From assembly GCF_029223285.1 (NCBI RefSeq), contig NZ_JARHUJ010000009.1:310001-374000 (forward strand): DNA of 64,000 nucleotides, in the 5' to 3' direction. The notes below the pieces were generated by a model, which made no database searches, had not been told where the DNA came from, and worked only from the letters and a program-made list of their open reading frames with translations. Made by a program: the position numbers and the translations under genes. Every line of letters begins with the position of its first letter. Position 1 is the first letter of the stretch. This stretch comes from Paraflavitalea sp. CAU 1676 (GTDB lineage Bacteria > Bacteroidota > Bacteroidia > Chitinophagales > Chitinophagaceae). Positions 24,225-31,234 of this stretch are shown piece by piece.

Positions 24225-25781
24225 CTATGGTGTATCCCACCACAACGGGGTCAGCAAACGATACTTCTCAGAGTTATCGCCAACCGCCTGCGGATTCCGG
24301 TTCTGCTCATTCGTTTCATACACCATGCCTCTTATCCACTGGTTCGGATTGCCAACATCGAAGATCACATTGTTGATATTGGCTGGCCTCCGCAACGAGG
24401 GACCATAAATCGCCGTACTGTAATCCATCCGCCGCATGTCCACCCAGGTTTCCGGGTTCAGGCACTGCGTAATGTATTTCTGCCGGAAGATATGGCTCAA
24501 CCCCTGCGTCTGATTGTCAAAGTGAGCAGTCAGGCCATCTGCGTCCTGGGCAGTCCAGTAGGCGGCGATCTCAACAGCGCCAACACCCAGTTTGCGCATA
24601 TTGGCACTCACGCCTTCGCGGTAAGCAGCCAAAGCATCTGCCTTGTTGCCCGAACGTAAGCTCGCTTCGGCCTGTATCAGCTTCACTTCCGAATAAGTAA
24701 TGAAGGGGAACGGTGAGGTGACGTTCGTATAATAACCACTTTTGCTGAATGGGCCATAGTCGGCTTCATTGGTAAACGTACCACCGCCATCCATGCCGCC
24801 GGCCAGCCCTGCACCGGGTCGCAAGCCACGATATTGTCCATCAGAAGCCGCGGGTTTCATAATGCGGCTGATGCGGGGATCCTGGTAACTGGTTTCAGTA
24901 ACCGGAAACTTGGTAAGGATGTTCACAAAGAACTGCGACCAGGTAAAGTACCGGGGGTTGGTAGCATCTGTAAAACCTCCCCAGCTCGCCCAGGGATTCT
25001 CATCCGTTTGCTGACCGCCCGCTAGGTAGGCAAACTGAGCATCCATACCATCCGCATTGAAACCATTCTGGCAGGCAGCCAGGATATTGGCCGCATTATA
25101 AAGGTTGCCCTTCTTAGATAGGTGATTCAGGTAGCGCGCCCGCAAACTGGAAGCAAACCGTTTCCATTTGTTCACATCGCCCTGATAGATGATATCACCG
25201 CCGCTATAGTTTAGCGGGGTTGTATTTGCACCATCGAATTTTAGAATGGCATCCGCCAGCAACGAATCTACATACGCATAAGCCGATTGCTGATCTTCCA
25301 TCTTGGGCAACAGGTTGATCTGCGCCTCCCCATCATAAAAGTCACGGGCAACGATAGAGCCGTACTGGTCGGCCAGCATGCCCAGGTTCAAAGCCAGCAA
25401 TACCTGGCCGGCGCCGGCAAAATGAAGATTGTTTTCCTTCTTGCCCAGCACGATCAGGTCTGCGCTGTTGGGCATGGTGAACACATAAGCATTTTGCCAG
25501 AAGAAGTAACTGGCCGTAAAACGCCAGGTCTCTGCATTTCGGTTGGTGCCCGTCAATAGTTTTGTTACACCATATTGCGTAACGCCTGCAATCTCCCGTT
25601 CTCCCCGCCACATCGACGAGCCACTGGTGGTCGTGATGGCACCGATCAACCGGTTGTGGGCTGGCATCGTTGTGGGATTATTAGGATCCGTGTTCACGTC
25701 CAGGAATTTTTCGCACGAAGAGGCTGCCAGTAAGCCAACTCCTAAAAGGCTATATAGAAAAGCATATTTGATATTGTTCAT
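24225..25781 (-). CDS. SusD/RagB-like lipoprotein (second pair)
   Basis: 518-residue surface lipoprotein; the signal peptide ends at a lipobox (LLAASSC, Cys23). Characteristic SusD-like_2 features: FLDVNTDPNNPTTMP just after the lipid cysteine, a helical repeat body, FITYSEVKLIQAEASLRSGNKADALAAYREGV near 370-400, and ETWVDMRRMDYS near the C-terminus. It follows the minus-strand SusC gene by 11 bases and forms the lid of that transporter. No glycosidase gene is attached to this pair, so the ligand cannot be guessed; it converges on the GH2 gene but is separated by a terminator. Confidence 0.93.
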   Translation of the reverse strand: MNNIKYAFLYSLLGVGLLAASSCEKFLDVNTDPNNPTTMPAHNRLIGAITTTSGSSMWRGEREIAGVTQYGVTKLLTGTNRNAETWRFTASYFFWQNAYVFTMPNSADLIVLGKKENNLHFAGAGQVLLALNLGMLADQYGSIVARDFYDGEAQINLLPKMEDQQSAYAYVDSLLADAILKFDGANTTPLNYSGGDIIYQGDVNKWKRFASSLRARYLNHLSKKGNLYNAANILAACQNGFNADGMDAQFAYLAGGQQTDENPWASWGGFTDATNPRYFTWSQFFVNILTKFPVTETSYQDPRISRIMKPAASDGQYRGLRPGAGLAGGMDGGGTFTNEADYGPFSKSGYYTNVTSPFPFITYSEVKLIQAEASLRSGNKADALAAYREGVSANMRKLGVGAVEIAAYWTAQDADGLTAHFDNQTQGLSHIFRQKYITQCLNPETWVDMRRMDYSTAIYGPSLRRPANINNVIFDVGNPNQWIRGMVYETNEQNRNPQAVGDNSEKYRLLTPLWWDTP

Positions 25782-25792
25782 GATGCAACGAT

Positions 25793-28700
25793 TTAAAGAG
25801 TTATTTTCAAACTAATGTCCACACCGCGCGTAGCAGGTATGCCGAGGTTGTCAAAACCAAACGAGCCAGTACCGCCTACGCCGGCGCCACTGCCCGATAC
25901 TTCAGGATCAACACCCGAATAATCGGTGATCAGTATCAGGTTGCGACCCGTTACGGAAACCTGTGCATTCGTGAAAGGCGTTCTTCCAAGCAGCTTCCGG
26001 GGGAAATTGTAGGTCAGTGTTGCATACCGCAGCCGGTACCAGCTGCCGTCTTCTACAAAATCATAACCGTGGAAGGGATAAATAGTCTGATAATAGTTCT
26101 GGTCAAGAAGTACGGATTGCGTATTCTTCGCGCCGGTCGATTCTATGATGCCATCAAAAACCATCGAGCTGCCGCGGTTAAGGGTCTTGGGACTCTGACC
26201 TGAGCGCACGAGATAGTTTTCTGTAGCATTATAGATGTCGCCGCCAATGCGCACATCCCACATAAACGCCAGCGAAAGGCTTTTATACGTAAAAGTATTC
26301 GTAATGCCACCCACCCAATCAGGGTTGCGGTCGCCGATGTTTTGGTAAGTACTTTGAACCTGAGGGTATCCGTTATTGGCCAACAACAATTGTCCCTTGG
26401 CATCGCGTTTCCAAACGTTGCCATTAATACCAAACAAACTTCCATAAAGGAAAGCCGCACCTTGAGCCACATTACCAGCAGCCCAGGCATCAGAAAGTTC
26501 AACCCGGTCGAGGCTTCCCGGCAACGACTCCACTGTTGCCGTATTCTTTGCCAGGTTCAGGTCGATCTGCCAGCTGAAATTAGTGTGCCTTATAGCAGTA
26601 CCATTCACCATCAGCTCAACACCCTTGTTCCTGATTGAACCGCCATTCAGGTAAGCCAGGAAGGAGCCGGAAGAGGGTGGAGTACGGGTCGCCAGGATCT
26701 GATCGTCCGACAACGTGCGGTAATAGGTGAGATCAAAACCCAACCGGTTGTCCAGGAAACGAACCTCGCCACCCAGCTCAATGGAGTTGGTGAACTCAGG
26801 CCGCAAGGAAGGATTACCAAAGTAGTCGTTGGAGTTGAGGATAAAGCCGCGCGGGTTGATCGTAAAAGTATTGGTAACGTTCGATAGGGTAGTAGCCAGC
26901 ACATGCGGAGGCGCATCTTTACCCACGCGTGCCCAGGAGGCCCGTATCTTGGCATAGGAGAAAGTTTTACCGGTAACCTTGGTACCCAGCTCTTCCAATA
27001 GATCGGTCACTACTATCGAAGTGCTCACCGCCGGATAAAAGAAGGAACGATTTGTTACAGGCAACGTCGATGACCAGTCATTACGGCCACGCACATTCAC
27101 AAACACGATCCCTTTCCAGTCAGCACTGAAATCACCAAACACGCCAACGATGCGCCGCTTCTGGATGCTTTGCGAAATGGTACGGTCATTGGTGTTGGTA
27201 TTGTTGATGCTGGGGAAAGTGGGGTTGATGAAGTTCCGGCCATACCAATACTCCGTTTGTGATCTATACACTTCTATGTTGTTGCCAAGGGTCAGGCTCA
27301 GGTTAAAATCATTGGCAATTGTATGCTTACCGGTCACCAGCAGGGTAGAAGTGGTGATCTGGCTGTTCCGGGTCGATTGAGAGATCGCCCCTTTTTCTTC
27401 CCCAATGATCTTGGTGCCCGCAGCACGGACGCTGCTGAAATTGTCGGTGTAATAATCGGTACCCAGTCGATAGGTAATGTTTAAGAACTTCCAGGGATCA
27501 TAGATCGCATTGCCCACAAAAATGAAACGGTCCACGTCATCGGTGATCGGGTTGTTCTTGATACCCCAGTAAGGATTATCAGTGCCCACGATCGTACGTT
27601 GCGAACCATCCGGGTTCAGGTAGTTGCGCATGTCATCATTCTTGGGCCAGAAGATCACACCCAGCATGGTGCCGCCACCGCTGGTCGTGGTAGAGGAGGC
27701 TTCTGCAACGCCCTTACCTTGTAAAACATAACGCCGGTCAGTACGTGCATAGGTAGCGCCGCCGCCAACCCTGAACTTGTCGCTCAGCCGCGAGTCGGCC
27801 GATACTCTAAACGATTTGCGGGTAAAATCTGTTCCCTCCACAATGCCGTCCTGGTCGAAGTACGAACCGGAAGCGTAGAAGGTGGTACGATCGTTACCGC
27901 CGCTAAAAGAAACATCATGTCGCTGCGTAAAGCCGCTCTTGAAGAAATTGCCCAGGTTATCATAGATGGTTTCGCCCGAGTTGAATTGCGGTCCCCACGA
28001 GCCAATGGCAGCGGGGTCGTACACGCCTTGCTCACCTTGTTTATAGGTGCTTTGCATATCGGGCAGCTGGTTCACGTGATCGAAGGAAACGGTACCGGAA
28101 TAGCTGATGGCCGATTTGCCGGCAGCGCCTTTTTTAGTAGTGATGATCACCGCACCCGAAGCGGCCCGCAACCCGTACAGGGCAGCTGCAGCAGGTCCTT
28201 TTAACACCGTTACACTTTGAACATCCTCCGGATTGAGGTCGATAGCTCTGTTGGAAGGGGGAGCCGATTGACCCACCAGGTTAGTGCCCTGCGTAACAGC
28301 TGTGCTATTATCCATCGGAATACCATCTATCACATATAGCGGCTGGTTATTACTGCTCAATGACGTACCGCCGCGGATCAGCATGATAGAGGAAGCCCCC
28401 GGCGCGCCACCGCTATTGGTGATCTGTACCCCAGCCACTTTACCTTGTAAAGCATTCACCAGGTTGGGCTGGTGCGATTCGGTGATGGCCTGCGCTTTTA
28501 CTTCCTGTAAAGAATAGCCCAGCGATCGCTTTTGTTGCGTTACCCCAAAAGCTGTCACCACCACAGCTGCTTCGGTTTTCGTTTCGCTCGCTTTGAGTGA
28601 AAAGCTAATGGTTGCAACACCGCTGGCCCCTACGGTTACTGCTTTGGTTTGCGACTCGAATCCGATAAAGGAAACTTCCACGCTGTAGGAACCCGGCGAA

Positions 28701-28942
28701 AGCTGGCTATAAGTAAATTTGCCATCCTTATTGGTAACAGTTCCCCTGTTGCCGGGAGTTAAAACCGCAGAAGCACCTTCAATTGGCGCATTCTTGTCGT
28801 CGACAACCGTACCCTGAATGCTTTGTGCCGTAGCCACGGAGCCACCGGCCAGTAGGAGGATAATGGTCAAAAGAACATACTGTAGCAGCCTGTCAGGGCG
28901 CCATCTGGCATAAGCATGCCTGCTTGCGTTAAATTGTTGCAT
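25793..28942 (-). CDS. SusC/RagA family TonB-dependent outer-membrane transporter (second pair)
   Basis: 1049-residue outer-membrane transporter. A long N-region precedes the signal-peptide core (residues ~20-39, ending VATAQ). Residues 40-125 are a carboxypeptidase-regulatory-like domain (QGTVVDDKNAPIEGASAVL). The TonB-box-like AAVVVTAFG is near 127 and the plug runs ~135-270 (NALQGKVAGVQITNSG, PLYVIDGIPMDNS, LKGPAAAALYGLRAASGAVIITTKKG). The beta-barrel ends VDISLKITL. There is no STN domain. SusC and SusD form a two-gene operon reading leftwards. Other members of this branch import peptides or oligosaccharides, so the substrate is open. Confidence 0.94.
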   Translation of the reverse strand: MQQFNASRHAYARWRPDRLLQYVLLTIILLLAGGSVATAQSIQGTVVDDKNAPIEGASAVLTPGNRGTVTNKDGKFTYSQLSPGSYSVEVSFIGFESQTKAVTVGASGVATISFSLKASETKTEAAVVVTAFGVTQQKRSLGYSLQEVKAQAITESHQPNLVNALQGKVAGVQITNSGGAPGASSIMLIRGGTSLSSNNQPLYVIDGIPMDNSTAVTQGTNLVGQSAPPSNRAIDLNPEDVQSVTVLKGPAAAALYGLRAASGAVIITTKKGAAGKSAISYSGTVSFDHVNQLPDMQSTYKQGEQGVYDPAAIGSWGPQFNSGETIYDNLGNFFKSGFTQRHDVSFSGGNDRTTFYASGSYFDQDGIVEGTDFTRKSFRVSADSRLSDKFRVGGGATYARTDRRYVLQGKGVAEASSTTTSGGGTMLGVIFWPKNDDMRNYLNPDGSQRTIVGTDNPYWGIKNNPITDDVDRFIFVGNAIYDPWKFLNITYRLGTDYYTDNFSSVRAAGTKIIGEEKGAISQSTRNSQITTSTLLVTGKHTIANDFNLSLTLGNNIEVYRSQTEYWYGRNFINPTFPSINNTNTNDRTISQSIQKRRIVGVFGDFSADWKGIVFVNVRGRNDWSSTLPVTNRSFFYPAVSTSIVVTDLLEELGTKVTGKTFSYAKIRASWARVGKDAPPHVLATTLSNVTNTFTINPRGFILNSNDYFGNPSLRPEFTNSIELGGEVRFLDNRLGFDLTYYRTLSDDQILATRTPPSSGSFLAYLNGGSIRNKGVELMVNGTAIRHTNFSWQIDLNLAKNTATVESLPGSLDRVELSDAWAAGNVAQGAAFLYGSLFGINGNVWKRDAKGQLLLANNGYPQVQSTYQNIGDRNPDWVGGITNTFTYKSLSLAFMWDVRIGGDIYNATENYLVRSGQSPKTLNRGSSMVFDGIIESTGAKNTQSVLLDQNYYQTIYPFHGYDFVEDGSWYRLRYATLTYNFPRKLLGRTPFTNAQVSVTGRNLILITDYSGVDPEVSGSGAGVGGTGSFGFDNLGIPATRGVDISLKITL

Positions 28943-29075: not shown

Positions 29076-29114
29076 AAAAAGGGAAAAAATACAATTAAAA
29101 CAACGTAGAGTAGA

Positions 29115-30224
29115 CTACGAGGCAGGAAAAGTCAGCAAAGCGTGCTGACTCGCCGTATGAAGATCGCGCCATACGCGGCTGATCGAAGTAGTTGGGTCAG
29201 CAGCAGCAATGCCGCAAAAGGGATACAATGCATCCACTTTCTCTCTGGCAATAGTGGCCATATGGCGGCTTGTGTGACTCATGTCGGCCAGCATACCGGC
29301 GGGTACCGAACCCGTCGCGGTCATTGAGTCCCAGGCTTTGTCGATGGCGGTATAAAAATGTAGTCTCGCAGTTTCCAGTTCCCCCACAGCGTTATGCAAC
29401 ATCTTGCGCAATGGCGCCTCAGCAAGGAATCTGTGAGATGGGCGCTGAAGTTTTTCTTCAAAAATAACAGCGCACAGGTCGAGAAAGCGCACGGCCATGC
29501 CGCTGTAGTTAACGGCCAGCGTAGCTTCGGCAAATTGCAGAAAGGGAAAGTGGAATACCGGGTCAGGCAACACCGCCTTGCCGGGCTCCAGTACAAAGCT
29601 CCGGTCAAAAGGCACCAGCACATCCTTAATGGAAAACCCATGACTGCCCGTTGCGATCATGCCGATCGTGTGCCAGTTCTTGCGAAGGGAAACTTCGTCA
29701 GTATAAAACCAGAAAGACTGGATCAGTGGATTTCCTGCAGCATCTTGCAGGGGTGTGCCATCTTTTTCTATAATGCAGTTGGTAGTAAACGCAGTAGCGT
29801 GCATTGCGCCGGTCGCGTAATTCCATTCGCCGCTCACCAGATAACCAGCGTCGGTTATCTGCGCTACGCCCGATGGTTTGCCACTGCCTGCCAGGCAAGC
29901 CTTACGATTATCAAAAAGCACGTTCCGTGCAGAATCGGCCAGGAATCCGGCAAACCAATTAGCGCCACTGCACAACGTTACCGTCCACCCCACACTGCCA
30001 TCTGTCCAGGCAAGGGCTTCTTCCAGTCGCAGAGCTTCTGGCAGCGACAAACCTAACCCGCCGAAACGTTCTGGTACAAAGAAATTGAACCAACGCTGCT
30101 GGTAAATAATGGAAAGTTGATCATCGTGCAACCGTCCCAGCAATTCTGCATCGGCTGCAAATTCGCGCAAGGTACCATACAGCACAGGTTCAATGATCGT
30201 CGATGGGTGATGGATATTCGTCAT
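29115..30224 (-). CDS. Acyl-CoA-dehydrogenase-fold flavoprotein, possibly a group D flavin monooxygenase
   Basis: 369 residues from the ATG at 30224 (a TTG three codons upstream is less likely). The N-terminal helical domain carries FFVPERFGGLGLSLPEALRLEEALAWTDGSVGW. The central beta domain carries YLVSGEWNYATGAMHATAF and IGMIATGSHGFSIKDVLVP. The C-terminal helical bundle ends VWRDLHTASQHALL. The whole matches the acyl-CoA dehydrogenase fold; the C-terminal RDLHTASQH pattern is closer to the Acyl-CoA_dh_2 / HsaA-DszC branch, which are reduced-flavin-dependent monooxygenases, than to true dehydrogenases. It begins 15 bases after the stop of the PnuC-family gene and both follow a TPP riboswitch, so a role in thiamine or thiamine-precursor metabolism is possible. 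Fold assignment is good; reaction unknown. Confidence 0.75.
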   Translation of the reverse strand: MTNIHHPSTIIEPVLYGTLREFAADAELLGRLHDDQLSIIYQQRWFNFFVPERFGGLGLSLPEALRLEEALAWTDGSVGWTVTLCSGANWFAGFLADSARNVLFDNRKACLAGSGKPSGVAQITDAGYLVSGEWNYATGAMHATAFTTNCIIEKDGTPLQDAAGNPLIQSFWFYTDEVSLRKNWHTIGMIATGSHGFSIKDVLVPFDRSFVLEPGKAVLPDPVFHFPFLQFAEATLAVNYSGMAVRFLDLCAVIFEEKLQRPSHRFLAEAPLRKMLHNAVGELETARLHFYTAIDKAWDSMTATGSVPAGMLADMSHTSRHMATIAREKVDALYPFCGIAAADPTTSISRVWRDLHTASQHALLTFPAS

Positions 30225-30239
30225 GGTAAACAAAGAGAA

Positions 30240-30872
30240 TTAAGTAAAAGACACGTTTTGTTCAGCCTCCTCAGCACGGAGGATCTTATTCCATTTAATA
30301 TACCCAAACACAGCAACGATAAACAGGAATAAGGTCAGGGCAGCATACAATGGCAGGTCTTTGTGGAGTAACAAGGGAATAGCAAATGCATTCGACAAGT
30401 TTAATAAGATCCAATTCTCGATCTTACGTTTGGCCAGCAACCACATGCCCGCCCAGGCAGTGGCGCTCACCCAGGCATCCCAGTAAGGTACAGTAGAAGG
30501 GGTGAACCGCTGTAAGCAAAACGACAGCAATACAAAGCCAACTACAACGATCAATAGAACCGTGATCCAGTCCTGGCGGCTGCTGCGGGTGATCTTTACA
30601 GGAGGCTCATTTTTCTTTTTCACCCAATACCACCAGCCATAAACACTCATCACTATATAATACAGGTTCAAAAGGCATTCAGCAAATAAACCTGCTTCAA
30701 AGAGGATGAAGATCGAAAGCGCAGTGGCTGCAATGCCGGTAGGGTATAGCCATATCTTGTTGGCTTTGGCAAACAACACTTCCGAAACACCGAGTGCCAG
30801 TGCCAGCCATTGAATAGGGGGCGTTTCCGCCAGTTGCTGGCCCAAAAGAATAAACCATTCCGTTAAGGTCAT
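30240..30872 (-). CDS. pnuT: PnuC-family transporter, probable thiamine transporter PnuT
   Basis: 210-residue inner-membrane protein starting MTLTEWFILLGQQL at the ATG 30872; a GTG 16 codons upstream was rejected. Seven or so hydrophobic helices are visible. Family landmarks are NKIWLYPTGIAATALSIFILFEAGLFAECLLN in the first half and the repeat-like KIENWILLNLSNAFAIPLLL in the second (the paired W/N-rich helices of PnuC proteins). PnuC proteins take up nicotinamide riboside, riboflavin or thiamine by facilitated diffusion with trapping by phosphorylation. The TPP riboswitch directly upstream assigns this one to thiamine (PnuT). The flavoprotein gene follows 15 bases downstream. Confidence 0.9.
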   Translation of the reverse strand: MTLTEWFILLGQQLAETPPIQWLALALGVSEVLFAKANKIWLYPTGIAATALSIFILFEAGLFAECLLNLYYIVMSVYGWWYWVKKKNEPPVKITRSSRQDWITVLLIVVVGFVLLSFCLQRFTPSTVPYWDAWVSATAWAGMWLLAKRKIENWILLNLSNAFAIPLLLHKDLPLYAALTLFLFIVAVFGYIKWNKILRAEEAEQNVSFT

Positions 30873-30944
30873 ACACAGTAAATTAAAAATGATCCAACAA
30901 GCCCAAAGGGAGCAACGCACACGTAATGCGCCGGAAGTTGTTAT

Positions 30945-31080
30945 GCCTCGTCCCTACGCCGGTATTATCCGGATCAGGTGCTTGAAAGAAATCATTGATA
31001 TTCAACAAATCCTTTCAATGGGTATAATCTCAGCCTTGATTTCAGTTTCGCCCGGAAGGCGAAACAAGGCACCCCTTGAG
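30945..31080 (-). ncRNA. TPP riboswitch (THI element)
   Basis: Read on the minus strand, all conserved THI blocks are present in order: AGGGGTGCC (complement of 31068-31076), CTGAGA (31028-31033), ACCTGATCCGGATAATACC (30961-30979) and CGTAGGGACGAGG (30946-30958). The variable P3 region lies between the second and third blocks. It sits about 70 bases before the pnuT start and should lower expression when thiamine pyrophosphate is plentiful. No clear terminator hairpin follows, so control of translation start is the more likely mode. Confidence 0.95.
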
Positions 31081-31234
31081 TTGTAGAGCGCAAAGATAAC
31101 ACCTGCCACCCAAACCCTTCTCAAAAAAAATCTTCCCCCTGCGTATGGAAATTATTCATTCCTGCATCATAGGCAGTCAAAACGGAAAAAGTAACGGTGA
31201 AGAAGGGCAGAGGAAAAACCATAATTGATCAATC

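Follow-up and report, generated by a model that had tools for sequence, protein, structure and literature searches.

The window analysed here, a stretch of 64,000 nucleotides of Paraflavitalea sp. DNA, carries on its minus strand a TPP riboswitch, a gene of the PnuC transporter family and a flavoprotein gene, and the question that it raises is what the flavoprotein does in such company. An earlier note on this DNA had proposed that it acts on thiamine or on a degraded thiamine moiety, perhaps in salvage. Our reading is that the flavoprotein is an oxygenase in a TPP-controlled uptake operon and would act on a thiamine-related compound, most likely in salvage; taken as a whole, we consider this reading evenly poised between right and wrong.

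Architecture of the operon and its riboswitch

Read along the minus strand, the riboswitch (THI element; 30934..31086) lies at the high-coordinate end and is followed by the pnuT-type gene (30240..30872; 210 aa) and the flavoprotein gene (29115..30224; 369 aa). The riboswitch matched RF00059 over positions 1-105, the full length of the model, with 49.7 bits; its E value was 6.8e-9 when 441 bases were searched and 3.2e-8 against the whole genome. The conserved core and the paired arms are present, and the alignment places long insertions in two of the stem arms. A default Rfam scan of the window returned no match, and the element surfaced under a permissive setting only; its score is below the Rfam gathering score of 54.3 bits, a threshold that is a filing rule and not a structural feature. 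The pnuT-type product matched PF04973 (E 1.4e-50) and TIGR01528 (75.1 bits). These results confirmed the THI element that had been claimed ahead of a PnuC-family gene, and the riboswitch points to thiamine as the cargo of the transporter. A consensus scan found no terminator between the aptamer and pnuT, which makes translational control more likely, and the stretch between them folds no better than shuffles. TPP would be expected to lower expression of the operon (OFF-control).

The stop of pnuT and the start of the flavoprotein gene are 15 bases apart (30225-30239), as the earlier note had stated. A terminator or promoter between the two genes, which that note held would speak against its proposal, has no room in so short a gap, and the two genes are presumably transcribed as one operon. 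Where the flavoprotein gene ends, a weak terminator-like hairpin (29104..29119, minus strand) overlaps the stop codon; it came from the consensus scan alone, in which 5 such sites were found against 2.9 expected in shuffles. A SusC/SusD-type pair lies directly downstream of the flavoprotein gene (24225-28942). It was considered as a part of the operon and rejected, since of four same-genus relatives two (L049 and L050) have it in that position and two (L047 and L048) do not. The source genome (8.84 Mb, 99.97% complete) holds one match to the flavoprotein and three TPP elements. The second of these lies ahead of a TonB receptor gene that is followed by a DUF6807 gene (L120); the third precedes a four-gene operon (L121).

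Identity of the flavoprotein

The flavoprotein matched PF08028 (Acyl-CoA_dh_2; E 5.7e-12), and among solved structures its sequence is closest to Rv3094c and HsaA. Its AlphaFold2 model (mean pLDDT 90.4) matched Rv3094c with a Z score of 44.3 and HsaA with about 44, against 33-35 for acyl-CoA dehydrogenases. Acyl-CoA dehydrogenases proper are thus not its closest kin, either by predicted fold or by sequence, and both the fold and the catalytic His of group D two-component flavin monooxygenases were found. Sequence and model together place the flavoprotein with the two-component flavin monooxygenases rather than with the acyl-CoA dehydrogenases.

With Rv3094c of Mycobacterium tuberculosis (7f70, 7f72, 7f74) it has the fold and the catalytic His in common at 24-26% identity. 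With HsaA, the oxygenase subunit of 3-HSA monooxygenase (2rfq, 3afe), it has the fold and the C-terminal RD-H---H pattern in common, although it fails the NCBIfam equivalog cut-off for HsaA (110.1 against 450 bits). The dibenzothiophene monooxygenase DszC belongs to the same superfamily, but the flavoprotein scores 19.4 bits against the DszC cut-off of 850, and in fold DszC (Z about 33) is no closer than the acyl-CoA dehydrogenases. The assignment to an HsaA/DszC-like oxygenase branch in the earlier note therefore holds for the HsaA type, with the catalytic His kept, and is weaker for the likeness to DszC.

The FMN contacts of Rv3094c, as given in excerpts of PMC9904262, are G113, W115, S138, W80, V114, F136, W174, L179, S184, T347, H351 and F352, with H351 as the proposed proton donor. 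Their equivalents in the flavoprotein are, in the same order, G113, G115, T138, W80, S114, Y136, W184, M189, S194, T357, H361 and A362, so that by comparison with this excerpted list six of the 12 are identical, three are conservative (T138, Y136, M189) and three are changed (G115, S114, A362). The incomplete agreement of these contacts was counted against the preferred reading, as was the lack of a flavin reductase gene in the window operon. With both sides considered, monooxygenase chemistry appears to us quite likely.

Spread of the linkage with thiamine uptake genes

Within the family Chitinophagaceae, 294 genomes were searched at E 1e-10; 74 of them, the source genome included, carry the flavoprotein, and they are distributed over 37 of 101 genus codes. 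A search of 395 genomes of the phylum (E 1e-20) found it in 31, six of them shared with the family set. Loci from the 73 other family genomes, 25 further phylum genomes and nine out of 13 additional loci gave 107 for comparison besides the window. A locus was taken as linked if it had a same-strand TPP element at most 4.5 kb upstream or a pnuT gene at most 800 bases upstream. For classification we used a covariance model, R1, built from 21 TPP elements; it gives the window element 104 bits by construction, because that element is one of its training members. By this rule 47 of the 107 loci were linked to a TPP element, pnuT or both, and 60 were unlinked, with the proviso that R1, trained mostly on elements preceding pnuT, may miss divergent elements ahead of unlinked copies, and that some of these copies may have a thiamine link of another kind.

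Among the linked loci, 39 had both a TPP element and pnuT, three had pnuT with no TPP element found, and five had a TPP element and no pnuT. In 44 of the 47 a TPP element lies upstream of pnuT, a receptor gene or the flavoprotein gene; homologues behind TPP riboswitches in other Bacteroidota, which the earlier note had suggested looking for, thus make up 44 of the 107 loci. The same note held that homologues mostly in unrelated operons would count against its proposal. On the widest set this was the case, with 60 of 107 loci unlinked; among homologues at least 45% identical to the window protein it was not, 24 of 30 being linked, against 23 of 77 below 45%. By narrower bins, linkage was seen in 4/4 loci at 60% identity or more, 6/7 at 50-60%, 14/19 at 45-50%, 13/32 at 40-45%, 5/20 at 35-40% and 5/25 below 35%.

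The linked loci show four arrangements: TPP-pnuT-flavoprotein, TPP-receptor-pnuT-flavoprotein (L149-L152, family code f3), TPP-receptor-flavoprotein and TPP-flavoprotein. The third was found at four loci of genus code g2, where a TonB receptor follows the TPP element and pnuT is absent; these receptors share 49-51% identity with the TPP-controlled receptor of the window genome. The fourth is L080, with a weak TPP element (34.7 bits) directly ahead of the flavoprotein gene. Relative to the pnuT stop, the flavoprotein gene starts between -32 and +91 bases in 41 of 42 pnuT-linked loci, the remaining one, L163, being at 592. Linked copies were found in family codes f1, f3, f4 and f8. Within the family itself, 18 of the 37 carrier genus codes show the link, three of these through pnuT alone, and it recurs in three other family codes. 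In a quick tree of 108 proteins, with SH-aLRT support only, linked rows are scattered across several clades and at least nine changes between the linked and unlinked states are needed. A 23-row clade (support 88) contains no linked copy at all and, like the other unlinked loci, was counted against the thiamine reading. On this evidence we regard membership of the flavoprotein in the thiamine (TPP-riboswitch) regulon as very probable.

Linked and unlinked copies were also compared in their active sites, in counts that left out 11 short or distant rows. W80, G113, W184 and H361 are present in 48 of 48 linked rows; among 49 unlinked rows W80, W184 and H361 are present in all and G113 in 47. G115 and A232, which replace W115 and the gate residue F221 of Rv3094c, occur in 48/48 linked rows and in 96% of the unlinked ones. 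Because the active-site residues, G115 and A232 are shared by both sets, the two kinds of copy probably catalyse the same reaction, on a substrate that probably differs from that of Rv3094c. Acidic candidates for holding a thiazolium in the pocket are few: only E69 and D75 reach 85% conservation among linked rows, which was counted against a thiamine-type substrate.

Several further loci were inspected around this linkage. The genes flanking the unlinked copies were grouped into clusters and compared with nine TPP-controlled TonB receptors; within the fetched flanks only L169 had such a receptor. There a flavoprotein gene (28% identical; not counted as linked) immediately precedes a TPP element, with a TonB receptor gene of the same type behind the element. 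An apparent pnuT-flavoprotein fusion in G035, a 591-aa open frame, was rejected since the reading frames of its two tblastn matches differ. In eleven loci that have TPP-pnuT but no flavoprotein, annotated mostly by eye (Pfam was used for the genes of L178 and for two in L185), there was no kinase and no common partner. One of them, L185 (2498-5463, plus strand), has three more genes on the same strand behind TPP-pnuT, which encode in turn a small membrane protein, a transporter of the Vut_1 family and a flavin monooxygenase of the luciferase-like type (PF00296, 80 bits), and its genome has an HsaA-type flavoprotein that is unlinked. L176 and L177 carry tandem pnuT-like genes, two behind one TPP element. 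In L149 and L151 the flavoprotein gene is followed by genes for a secreted-alkaline-phosphatase-like protein of about 570 aa and a ThiE-like protein, both named by eye.

Thiamine genes of the carriers and the proposed role of the oxygenase

ThiC was found in 48 of the 294 family genomes (the match in G262 being partial) and was not found in the window's genome. Among the 30 pnuT-linked family genomes, the window's included, one has ThiC, two have full-length ThiD (cut at E 1e-38, weaker matches being mostly partial) and one has TenA; the ThiD match of the window genome is partial and, at 24.2 bits, below the cut-off. The 39 unlinked carriers comprise ten with ThiC, 12 with full-length ThiD and five with TenA. 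The difference between linked and unlinked carriers gave p 0.018 for ThiC and p 0.016 for ThiD by Fisher's test with kinship ignored, and the shortage of ThiC against 220 genomes without the flavoprotein was not significant (p 0.09). Since ThiC, ThiD and TenA are mostly missing from them, most pnuT-linked carriers seem, from their gene content, to depend on imported thiamine. This dependence is not general: of the five carriers that are TPP-linked without pnuT, four have ThiC and four have ThiD, with TenA in none.

To our knowledge, no route rebuilds thiamine from its pyrimidine fragment without ThiC, ThiD and TenA. Their scarcity argues that the oxygenase would work on an intact thiamine-type compound, and salvage of the broken-off pyrimidine is disfavoured in most pnuT-linked carriers. 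The degraded moiety that had been offered as an alternative substrate to thiamine is therefore unlikely there (ThiD 2/30, ThiC 1/30, TenA 1/30); in the five TPP-linked carriers without pnuT, action on such a moiety is possible.

The PF04263 thiamine pyrophosphokinase was found in 0 of the 30 pnuT-linked family genomes and in 0 of all 74 carriers, even though uptake genes under TPP control are common among them; of 14 control genomes, 7 gave a match. Carriers seem to need a thiamine-to-TPP kinase of another family. In gut Bacteroidetes the last position of the corresponding operon is held by tnr3, presumably a thiamine pyrophosphokinase. As far as that operon, OMthi-pnuT-tnr3, is described in excerpts of PMC5613172, it shares the TPP riboswitch and the PnuC-family gene with the window operon, while the flavoprotein here takes the position of tnr3. 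By the same excerpts it includes the receptor gene, unlike the window operon, whose genome has its TPP-controlled TonB receptor elsewhere (L120). L149-L152 do share with it an in-operon TPP-controlled TonB receptor, to judge from receptors compared with one another and not with the Bacteroides OMthi.

A mechanism consistent with these findings would start from low cellular TPP, at which the riboswitch would permit expression, likely at translation, so that transporter and oxygenase would be made together. An outer-membrane receptor would take up thiamine or a close relative, which the PnuC-family transporter would then import. A reductase encoded elsewhere would supply reduced flavin to the oxygenase, and the oxygenase would oxidise a thiamine-related compound arriving by the same route, the most likely outcome being that an intact thiamine derivative of no use to the cell is made usable. 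That the substrate is thiamine-related, whether for salvage or for clearing, we judge somewhat likely, and salvage in particular a plausible but doubtful choice.

Clearing would mean that the oxygenase inactivates toxic thiamine analogues entering through the up-regulated transporters. The linkage (47/107) fits this equally well, and so does the nearest solved relative, Rv3094c, which according to excerpts of PMC9904262 oxidises the drug ethionamide at sulfur. Bacimethrin is described in excerpts of PMC12637900 as a microbial antagonist of thiamine auxotrophs without HMP synthesis, and most pnuT-linked carriers are without ThiC. The same excerpts, however, attribute bacimethrin toxicity to its incorporation into thiamine through the pyrimidine branch, and 28 of the 30 pnuT-linked carriers are without full-length ThiD, so that the target would have to be a ready-made analogue such as methoxythiamine. 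We lean to salvage because the branch that bacimethrin needs is missing from most pnuT-linked carriers and because the linkage includes receptor and transporter in several arrangements; clearing of antivitamins seems unlikely.

A second alternative leaves thiamine untouched and has the flavoprotein replace a TPP-dependent step during thiamine shortage, much as metE replaces metH under B12 riboswitches. Regulation by TPP alone, as in L080 with its gene directly behind the TPP element, would fit this, as would the existence of unlinked copies with the same active site. Against it, 46 of the 47 linked copies do not stand alone but follow a gene for a receptor or transporter, mostly starting near the stop of pnuT where there is one, and we consider it quite improbable. 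That an oxygenase of unrelated function was placed behind pnuT by history would fit the 60 unlinked loci but is very unlikely, given that linked copies from four family codes are combined with thiamine-uptake parts in four different ways, that 24 of 30 close homologues are linked and that the state changed repeatedly on the tree.

The preferred reading would in its strongest form imply a new O2-dependent reaction on an intact thiamine vitamer, by the first oxygenase in a vitamin B1 uptake operon, in carriers that mostly lack the known pyrimidine-branch genes and in which no PF04263 kinase was found; we put this forward tentatively, as somewhat less than an even prospect. Taken singly, the riboswitch and the families of the transporter and the oxygenase are known; their repeated pairing appears undescribed in the literature searched. 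The one 'acyl-CoA dehydrogenase' in the excerpts of PMC12637900 is mentioned there in connection with the oxidation of fatty acids. Should a thiamine vitamer prove to be the substrate, the oxygenase would extend vitamin B1 metabolism by an enzyme activity and would tell which B1-like compounds import-dependent bacteria encounter. Given the breadth of the linkage, results from one cultured member would bear on a large group.

The third TPP element of the source genome heads an operon of its own (L121:4804-7446, minus strand, contig C20) that encodes a methyltransferase, a ThiL-like AIRS kinase, a ThiE-like protein and a Trm112-like protein. Among the 294 genomes searched, 18 matched the ThiL-like protein (L121 and L199-L215), and 17 of these have all four genes with a TPP element; the 18th, G271, has a weak ThiL-like match and is missing the other three genes. 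The source genome's own ThiL-like (65.8 against 184.2) and ThiE-like (100 against 145.1) proteins score below the NCBIfam cut-offs. ThiC is present in 0 of the 17 genomes, and the four-gene operon is possibly an undescribed route of TPP supply. The same-genus genomes G085 and G259 have the flavoprotein operon and are without the four-gene operon, and 9 of the 17 genomes carry a pnuT-linked flavoprotein (p 5e-6, kinship ignored). The methyltransferase is the most conserved of the four proteins, at 67-91% identity to that of the window genome, against 48-68% for the ThiL-like protein.
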